Shown: positions 8,492 through 62,778 of the stretch, piece by piece
Numbering within the stretch: the first letter of the stretch is position 1
Layout of the letters: each line of letters starts with the position of its first letter
Assembly: GCA_024638815.1 (NCBI GenBank)
Contig: JAHEJM010000006.1
Location: forward strand, 1-64,000
Length of the DNA stretch: 64,000 nt
Direction: 5' to 3'
DNA from: Acidimicrobiales bacterium
Lineage (GTDB): Bacteria; Actinomycetota; Acidimicrobiia; Acidimicrobiales; SZUA-35
The notes under the pieces: model-generated
The model's database searches: none
Told to the model about the DNA's origin: nothing
The model's input: the letters and a program-made list of their open reading frames with translations, nothing else
Translations under genes and position numbers: made by a program

Positions 8492-8609
8492 CTGGTTTCG
8501 CTTGGCGGATTGGATGTTCACGATCAAGTCAAGTTTCGGCGACGTTTGGCCGGAGGCCAAACTCAAGCCGTCTTCGGCCGTCGGCAGGAGCACCGTCTCG
8601 CCGTACTAG
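8492..8609. repeat. Structured intergenic repeat, copy 1 (encodes a 31-aa ORF on + at 8514-8609)
   Basis: Near-identical to 51639-51741; stem GGCGACG 8538-8544 / CGT-ct-CGCC 8594-8602, hairpin GTTTGGCC-GGA-GGCCAAAC 8544-8562, extra GCCG-TCTT-CGGC hairpin 8567-8578. Confidence 0.75.
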
Positions 8610-30459: not shown

Positions 30460-31746
30460 ATGGACACACTCGCAATACCAGCATCTTCCCAGGAGCTTGT
30501 GACAGCCACGCTGGCGTTGTTGCCCACCGAGGTGTCGGGGCTTGATGTCGGCGGGTTGTCGGGCGATGGTGTGGTCGGGTTGCTGGCCACGGTTCGTGAC
30601 GCCCAACGGGCCCTGGACGGGCTGGTGGTGCGCCTTGGGTTGCGGGCCGATGAACTGGCCGCTCGTGGTGAGGGTGGCGGCGCCAGGGAGGTGCTGATTC
30701 GAGGGGTGCGGGGCTCGACCGCTCGTCGAGAAACTGCCCGTGTCCAAGCCGCACGGCGTTGGCCTACCGTCGGGGACGCCTTGGCCAGGGGTGTGATCTC
30801 GGGAGACCATGTCGATTCGCTCGCCCGCCGGCTGGGCGGGCTGAGCGATGACCAGCAGGCTGGTGTTGACGTCGACGGACTCGTCGAACAGGCCCGCCGG
30901 CTACCGGCCGACACCTTCGACACCGTGGTGAAACGAGTCGTTGATGACGCCCGCGGCGACGGTGGTCTCGGCGACAGTGAACAGCGTCGGGCCGCGTCGG
31001 AGTTCCGGCACTGGTACGACGAAACCGACGGCATGGGCCGGTTCCGAGGCGCCTTCGACCCGGAACGCTACGAAGGGCTCGTGTCTGCCATCGAAGCCCA
31101 GATGACCTCGATCGCCAACCAACAATCCGACGCCGTAACCAAGGACGCCAACCTCGCCGCCCGGGCCCTTCACGAACTCGTCACCGGCAACCGGGCCGGT
31201 GGGCGACCGGTCCCGGCCGCCGGGTTCGTCATCGACTACCAAACCCTGACCGGCGGACACCACGACGACACCGTGTGTGAAACCGTCGAGGGACGTGACC
31301 TACCGGTCGACACGGTGGGGCGACTGTTGTGCGATGCGGTGTTGCGCCGCATCCTGTTGGACGACCGTGGCGTGCCCATCAACGTGGGGCGCCGGTACCG
31401 GACGGCGACCGACGCTCAATGGGCCGCGACCAAAGCCATCTACTCGACCTGCGGGTGGGACTGCTGTGACAGACCCATTACCGCCGCACCCGCAAGCGGG
31501 TGCTAACCAAGTTCGGCAACGCCGAACTTGCGGTGCCAACTGCATCACATTCACGAATGGGAAAAGGGCGGCCGCACCGACCTTCACCAGATGGTGCCGT
31601 TCTGCACCCATCATCACCGCCTCGTCCATGAAGGCGGCTGGACCGTTCGCCTACTACATGATCGACGGCTCGAGATCTATCGACCGGATGGTCGGCTCCA
31701 CGCCGTCACACCACAACCGACCCGGAACACGGTTCAGCAGGAGTAG
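30460..31746 (+). pseudogene. DUF222/13E12-type HNH endonuclease gene interrupted by an in-frame hairpin insertion containing a stop codon
   Basis: Upstream ORF ends ...CGWDCCDRPITAAPASGC* at 31506; same frame resumes at 31531 with CQLHHIHEWEKGGRTDLHQMVPFCTHHHRLVHEG to 31746. Confidence 0.8.
31486..31533. repeat. ~48-nt double-hairpin insertion (REP-like or bypass-like)
   Basis: GCACCCGC-AA-GCGGGTGC 31486-31503, TAA 31504-31506, CAAGTTCGGC-AAC-GCCGAACTTG 31508-31530; flanked by ACCG 31480-31483/CGGT 31531-31534. Confidence 0.7.
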
Positions 31747-51638: not shown

Positions 51639-51741
51639 GTAGTTTCGCGTGGTCGATTGAATGTTCACGATCAGGTCAAGGCTCGGCGACGTTTGGCCGG
51701 AGGCCAAACTCGGGGCGGCGAGCACCGTCTCGCCGCACTAG
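51639..51741. repeat. Structured intergenic repeat, copy 2 (encodes a 26-aa ORF on + at 51661-51741)
   Basis: Near-identical to 8492-8609; stem GGCGACG 51685-51691 / CGT-ct-CGCC 51726-51734 and hairpin GTTTGGCC-GGA-GGCCAAAC 51691-51709 both conserved. Confidence 0.75.
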
Positions 51742-61866: not shown

Positions 61867-62778
61867 TCAGACAGCCGAGGTGGCTTGCTCGCGCTCCTTG
61901 AGCCGGGCCGCCACCCGGGCCGACTTCTCGATGTAGGCCATGACCTTGTCCTGGGACTTCCGGGCCTCGGGTGTGAGCCCGGTCAGGTTGGGCAGATCCC
62001 AGAACTTGACCACGATCGGCTCCAGGATCTGGTCGTGGTGCACGGCCAGGTTGTAGATCCCGGCGGTGGCGATGACACGGGCGTGGGCGGTGAAGTCGGG
62101 AATGCCCTCGCCGGGCATGGCAAAGCCGATGACCTGGCGTTCCATGGCCTCCACCGCGGCGCTGGGGTTGATCTCCAGGGCGGACTTGGCCGCATCCCGG
62201 TAGAACAGGAAATGGTGGTTCTCGTCGATGGCCACCCGGCGCATGATGTCGTAGCCCGCCTTGTCCTCGAGCAGCGCTCCGGTGTTGCGATGGGAGATCC
62301 GGGTGGCCAACTCCTGGAGGGTGACATAGATCAGCCCGTCGACGGCGGTGGGTGGCTCCGGCACCTTGCCCCCGCACATCTGGGCCATACGGCCCTCCTC
62401 CAATTCCACCGGGTCGATGGCCCGGGTCACGGTGAGATAGTCGCGGATCACGGCCGAGTGGCGGGCCTCCTCGGCCGTCCACCGCCGGACCCACTCACCC
62501 CAGGCTCCGTCCCGGCCGAACATGCGCTCGATGTCCCGGAAGTAGTAGGGCAGGTTGTCCTCGGTCAGCAGGTTCACGAACAGGGCGCTGCGGACTTCGG
62601 CCGGCACGTCGGCTTCCTCCGGCGACCACTCGTAGTCGGGCTCGAAGTCCCGGCCCCGGCTCCAGGGCACGAACGTGTGGGGGTGCCAGAGCTTGGTGGC
62701 CTCGTAGTGCCGGTCGAGCAGCCGCCCGGCTTCTTCCTCCAGTTCGGCCAGAAGTGCGACATCGGCATCCAGAACCAT
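61867..62778 (-). CDS. Acyl-ACP desaturase (ferritin-like di-iron)
   Basis: WTAEEARHSAVIRDYL and RVAIDENHHFLFYRD di-iron motifs. Confidence 0.9.
   Translation of the reverse strand: MVLDADVALLAELEEEAGRLLDRHYEATKLWHPHTFVPWSRGRDFEPDYEWSPEEADVPAEVRSALFVNLLTEDNLPYYFRDIERMFGRDGAWGEWVRRWTAEEARHSAVIRDYLTVTRAIDPVELEEGRMAQMCGGKVPEPPTAVDGLIYVTLQELATRISHRNTGALLEDKAGYDIMRRVAIDENHHFLFYRDAAKSALEINPSAAVEAMERQVIGFAMPGEGIPDFTAHARVIATAGIYNLAVHHDQILEPIVVKFWDLPNLTGLTPEARKSQDKVMAYIEKSARVAARLKEREQATSAV

Follow-up and report, generated by a model that had tools for sequence, protein, structure and literature searches.

In the 64,000-nucleotide stretch of Acidimicrobiales DNA analysed here (the window), the spacer between serS and gdhA holds a hairpin-rich sequence that is found again further along the same stretch. 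The locus raises the question of what such a repeated sequence represents: a structured RNA that regulates its neighbours, a gene for a small peptide, or a small mobile element.

The repeat and its family

A preliminary description had placed two nearly identical copies in the window. Both lie where it had put them, and the full elements were found to span 8492-8609 and 51639-51741, each end of both being CTAG or a variant of it. Its match counts were reproduced exactly (48/51 from the ATG and 17/23 upstream), and the closing stretch (GAGCACC...CTAG) agrees at 21/22 positions. When copy 1 was compared with the window by blastn, copy 2 was returned at E=3.9e-24 with no other notable match, and the likeness of the two copies is therefore far beyond chance. 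The inner hairpin (hp1) is found in both copies and the indel between them lies as claimed, the 'extra hairpin' of copy 1 being an optional part of the arm termed A below. The features are as follows:

8492..8609, plus strand: copy 1, long-A type, CTGG-TTTCGCTTGG...CGCCGTA-CTAG, lying between the minus-strand genes serS and gdhA
8544..8562, plus strand: inner hairpin hp1 of copy 1, GTTTGGCC-GGA-GGCCAAAC, from sequence and cross-genome covariation
8567..8578, plus strand: optional arm hairpin of copy 1, GCCG-TCTT-CGGC, missing in the short types
8583..8602, plus strand: terminal hairpin of copy 1, GGC-AG-GAG-CACCGT-CTC-GCC (AG bulge), 3 nt ahead of the terminal CTAG
8606..8609, plus strand: right-end CTAG of copy 1
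51639..51741, plus strand: copy 2, short-A type, GTAG-TTTCGCGTGG...CGCCGCA-CTAG
51691..51709, plus strand: inner hairpin hp1 of copy 2
51716..51735, plus strand: terminal hairpin of copy 2, CGGCGAG-CACCGT-CTCGCCG
51738..51741, plus strand: right-end CTAG of copy 2

Copy 2 is flanked by divergent genes, an M20 peptidase gene on the minus strand and a glutamine cyclotransferase gene on the plus strand.

The element had been taken to exist in two copies, but the genome from which the window derives holds at least 98. The assembly searched was a draft MAG of 4.7 Mb in 227 contigs (90.8% complete), in which a sequence search gave at least 53 matches, a left-end pattern 52, and an inner-hairpin pattern 86, the reversed controls of both patterns giving 0. 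Merged, these searches delivered the at least 98 copies at about 76 loci (~10 kb in total), to which a fifth arm type adds a few more. The elements are intergenic, about 103-120 bp long, and carry CTAG at both ends in most copies. The main types have in common a 5' half of ~75 nt (consensus CTAGTTTCGCTTGGCGGCTTGGATGTTCACGATCAAGTCAAGTTTCGGCGACGTTTGGCCGGAGGCCAAACTC) that ends in the covarying inner hairpin, and their 3' half is drawn from a set of interchangeable hairpin arms, each closing with a GC-rich hairpin that a few nucleotides separate from the final CTAG:

Long A arm: AAGCCGTCYTCGGCCGTCGGCAGGAGCACCGTCTCGCCGTACTAG (copy 1)
Short A arm: GGGGCGGCGAGCACCGTCTCGCCGCACTAG (copy 2)
Long B arm: GAAGCAACTCGGAGAGTTGCCGTGAGGCGCTCCGCGCCGAACACTAG
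Short B arm: the fourth arm type
C type, the fifth: only the left end in common with the other types

Copies occur singly or in head-to-tail arrays that mix arm types. Adjacent units with unlike arms have 5' halves that are closer to each other than random pairs (0.109 vs 0.170, P about 0.001), and arms were probably swapped or gained locally within the arrays. All mixed arrays seen in the window's own genome (G000; contigs C71, C60, C151, C112, C198, C160, C153, and C80) have the same polarity, the long-A arm lying upstream of the short-A or B arms.

Exact matches to the hairpin core were found in the named genome records of two Acidimicrobiia MAGs only. Searched with a covariance model built on the 5' half, 149 relatives gave matches in 14, and 13 of these fall within the window's own family-level group; the matched genomes comprise the window's own, a sister-genus MAG with at least 31 copies, several members with few copies, and elsewhere single weak matches. 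The element family is largely confined to one Acidimicrobiia family, with a burst in copy number in one species. In one relative, the core hairpin and a short linker form a tandem array with a 45-bp period (G003:C591:2309-2471, L215).

Hairpins, neighbouring genes, and reading frame

The inner hairpin (consensus GAY-GTTYSSCC-NNN-GGSSRAAC-TC) is paired in 95.8% of cells within its own genome, and no covariation was found in that genome alone because its copies are too alike (mean column identity 85%). Across genomes, one side reads GTTTGGCC, GTTCGGCC, GTTTCGCC, GTTCGCCC, or GTTCCGCC, each with its own complement, and both sides had changed in 30 cells against 7.6 expected (0/500 shuffles), the hp1 sequences of the relatives having been chosen by a 7/8-pair filter, which makes the paired percentage too high and biases the choice towards complementary pairs. 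Changes on both sides were nevertheless seen repeatedly, in several genomes and for several types of pair, and the inner hairpin covaries strongly across genera. The second hairpin differs in sequence from one relative's genome to another and mostly remains palindromic.

The terminal hairpin is paired in 96.4% of cells in the long-A type (28 copies, A-T/G-C exchange in 7/28) and in 97.7% in the short-A type (19 copies, exchange in 3/19). By comparison, the outer stem proposed earlier (GGCGACG/CGCC) showed no double changes, had fewer cells paired, and was broken more often, so that the local hairpin CGGCGAG-CACCGT-CTCGCCG is better supported. The earlier picture of conserved stems with a variable arm, for which covariation in both stems had been named as a check, therefore stands for the inner hairpin, which covaries across genera, and for the arm, but not for the outer stem, where A-T/G-C exchanges were not seen.

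Stable predicted folds (z -1.3 to -2.6) and covarying hairpins are also consistent with a structured regulatory RNA, a riboswitch or leader, that was duplicated by chance and that, placed ahead of gdhA and of an M20 or cyclotransferase gene, would for instance sense nitrogen or amino acids. Both window copies lie directly upstream of a likely ribosome-binding site, and gdhA and the glutamine cyclotransferase gene are indeed among the neighbours. Such an RNA is nevertheless very unlikely. An Rfam scan of the element, a comparison already suggested in the preliminary description, returned no family above the gathering threshold and otherwise a chance-level match only. Moreover, the element occupies about 76 loci, of which 39 lie between tandem, 18 between divergent, and 12 between convergent genes, it forms head-to-tail arrays, and its burst falls in one species. 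In the window, the neighbours encode glutamate dehydrogenase, seryl-tRNA synthetase, an M20 peptidase, and a glutamine cyclotransferase; across the genome as a whole, most neighbouring genes bear no relation to one another. The link to nitrogen or amino acids that had been drawn earlier rests on 2 of about 76 loci, among neighbours of many kinds, and cannot be upheld. A nitrogen regulon was rejected because of this diversity, and an intrinsic terminator because of the many copies that sit between divergent genes; diverse neighbours and mixed orientation classes therefore indicate neither role.

Could the element instead encode a small peptide (MFTIKSSFGDVWPEAKL...)? Its ATG is intact in 67/76 aligned copies, frameshifts in the common part are few, and the A-type arms close with an in-frame TAG. 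Against this stands the variability of the three codon positions in the ATG frame, which is equal (0.110, 0.093, and 0.097), the number of synonymous changes, which lies at expectation (110 vs 99.5 expected, p=0.11), and the occurrence of 9 nonsense changes. Furthermore, many B-type arms pass the terminal TAG out of frame and so often leave the frame open beyond it. These results agree with the argument made earlier against selection on the peptide; the codon-level constraint that had been named as the mark of a peptide family was not found in the ATG-frame alignment. With no codon signal, the peptide family was rejected, and its probability is close to negligible. For annotators, the 31-aa ORFs are probably spurious, and the stop codons of many neighbour genes fall inside the element.

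Insertion and the CTAG ends

The serS-gdhA spacer of six relatives (G007, G002, G011, G004, G005, and G023) is 25-44 bp long and lacks copy 1, which is therefore an insertion. All six keep TCCTGTCG at the position of the junction, and the window's own genome reads TCCTG-GTTTCGC...GTACTAG-TTGTTGTCG there. Copy 1 was inserted just upstream of the likely ribosome-binding site of gdhA. Together with the roughly 100 dispersed copies, its absence from relatives bears out the earlier suggestion of a mini-mobile element. Other elements that were tried are also missing in G007 where the loci are comparable, their spacers being too diverged for the junctions to be mapped. Near-identical contigs in G002 were occupied at the loci compared, with one rearranged site that is uninformative, and strain-level empty sites were found for no copy other than copy 1. 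Two of these G002 contigs (C91 and C100) are 97-100% identical to contigs of the window's genome, and the serS-gdhA region of G002 is about 80% identical; the two contigs probably come from a close strain and were binned into G002, which has 8% contamination.

Left ends mostly read CTAG and otherwise CTGG, CCAG, CTCG, and the like, right ends mostly read CTAG, and the flanks beyond the ends have no clear consensus. CTAG at both ends would fit a 4-bp target duplication, but the left and right tetranucleotides frequently differ and the single clean empty site, that between serS and gdhA, reads CTGT rather than CTAG, with no clean target duplication. A preference for CTAG or CTAG-like sites is the simplest reading, and because the two ends often disagree it is to be taken as a tendency only. 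In one G002 contig (L078, G002:C145, about 837-1002), a copy of the element is directly adjoined by a different MITE, which is flanked by CTAG, carries terminal inverted repeats (CTAGCAGGGTGCGGAAA...TTTCCGCACCCTGCTAG), and has a CTAG in common with the copy.

CTAG is rare in this DNA and often lies within stop codons or spacers: the window has 20 sites against 195 expected from base composition, a depletion of about ten-fold, and 5/18 of the sites that do not belong to an element are stop codons. Genes around the copies were called with a codon-usage model of our own. Among the 64 facing gene 3' ends with a stop in view, 27 have a stop codon that is the TAG of an element's terminal tetranucleotide (24 CTAG, 2 TTAG, and 1 ATAG), which may be the left or the right one. 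Since CTAG reads TAG on both strands, an insertion at such a site would leave the genes to its left and right with a stop codon and would do little harm. This overlap offers a simple account of how a 118-bp element could enter a dense genome about 100 times.

Taken together, copy number, common ends, the empty site in relatives, covariation, the unlike arms within arrays, and the overlap of TAG with stop codons point to non-autonomous mobile hairpin repeats of a REP/MIRU-like kind, with a fixed 5' half and interchangeable 3' arms, a reading to which we assign a probability of roughly 0.7. The copies have the look of DNA parasites of this kind, and not that of a nitrogen switch or of a peptide, and the family is apparently so far undescribed. 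An enzyme supplied in trans would recognise the hairpin or hairpins, and the element would enter at CTAG or near-CTAG sites; once inserted, its own CTAG could serve as a landing site for more units and so give rise to tandem arrays. In transcripts, the element would add predicted stable hairpins to the UTRs, and any effect there would be secondary.

Candidate enzymes and known repeat families

Small mobile DNAs of the chromosome that would encode structured RNA include the bcr1-type repeats and the Correia/RUP MITEs. The element studied here differs from both in having neither terminal inverted repeats nor a clean target duplication, and it likewise does not match a MITE of a DDE transposon, as its left end (TTTCGCTTGG) and the reverse complement of its right end (TACGGCGAGA or TGTTCGGCGC) do not correspond. 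The plasmids and phages searched gave no match to the element, and an origin on either was rejected. Nor was a longer element seen that is bounded by both of these ends.

REP sequences offer closer parallels. The GTAG REPs and BIMEs are extragenic palindromes that are both dispersed and clustered and whose termini often give a TAG stop (PMC3733652). The present element is similarly dispersed and clustered, and its termini also supply TAG stop codons, but they read CTAG in most copies and are not a GTAG at the foot of the palindrome. It differs further from the GTAG REP/RAYT systems as a 118-bp unit of several hairpins, with CTAG at both ends, head-to-tail arrays of mixed arms, and no Y1 transposase found. 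CGTC REPs carry a 5' CGTC, a stem of 8-9 bp starting with AT, a loop of 4-5 nt, and a CCA tail, and most of the described tagged families are from Proteobacteria (PMC3733652). Those such as dRS3 resemble the element as palindromes without a known dedicated transposase, and the foot of hp1 carries GACG, which reads CGTC on the opposite strand. In hp1, however, there is no AT at the stem base and no CCA tail, the loop is 3 nt, and the tag lies at the opposite end of the palindrome.

MIRUs (mycobacterial interspersed repetitive units) are short intergenic repeats whose ends overlap the codons of flanking genes and which are reported to enter at start codons and to carry an ORF coupled at a spacing of -4 nt (PMC12548453). 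The element is likewise intergenic, actinobacterial, single or tandem, apparently mobile, and placed so that its codon overlap does little harm; its ends overlap flanking codons at 27/64 gene 3' ends, yet these are stop rather than start codons, and its internal ORF is without codon-level selection, the comparison being one by description. On present evidence, the element resembles the REP and MIRU kinds in its working and is a member of none of them.

Single-strand transposition of RAYT/IS200-type REPs by a Y1 transposase whose gene lies outside the assembled sequence would agree with the subterminal hairpin with a tetranucleotide at one end, the lack of terminal inverted repeats and of a clean target duplication, and the dispersed and clustered copies. 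Yet the 90.8%-complete assembly has no match to the Y1 (IS200/RAYT) transposase family PF01797, the positive controls (E. coli and others) having matched; RAYT was therefore set aside as the mover, and the transposition of such REPs is considered improbable here. With its high copy number, in an actinobacterial lineage that is uncultured and in which no RAYT was found, the family provides a handle on what moves RAYT-less REPs.

An expanded HNH endonuclease is another candidate: a putative nuclease would cut near CTAG and the breaks would be mended by copying hairpin units, and such spread would explain both the arm swapping and the missing target duplication. The genome has 40 matches to this HNH family, many of them fragments, with element termini of (CT)AG-RTGATTGGYTCCAAG, and at three loci an HNH element whose ends read (CT)AG-RTGATTGG abuts the right CTAG of the hairpin element:

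G000:C67:32272-33540 (L256): HNH element between two inverted hairpin elements
G000:C183:872-2290 (L239): hp1-like hairpin directly after the HNH stop codon
G000:C5:13219-14760 (L242): HNH element at the right CTAG

An HNH gene adjoins the element at only these 3 of ~76 loci, though, and a preference for CTAG in both elements accounts for the contacts more readily than a partnership would, because most HNH matches have no hairpin element within 1.5 kb. Repair after HNH cleavage is thus an unlikely route. Returning to the mobile hairpin repeats, it may tentatively be proposed that the hairpin modules are moved by an enzyme of neither the RAYT/IS200 nor the DDE type, with a fixed recognition half, swappable 3' arms, and a palindromic CTAG that leaves stops on both strands, a possibility that we still regard as doubtful.

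Two further features were observed in the window. The first is a DUF222-type gene (30583-31425, plus strand), which accounts for one of the genome's four PF02720 matches. The second is an Rfam match to ASdes, antisense to mycobacterial desA, that lies just above the gathering score (62402-62469, plus strand) and may merely reflect conserved desaturase coding sequence.
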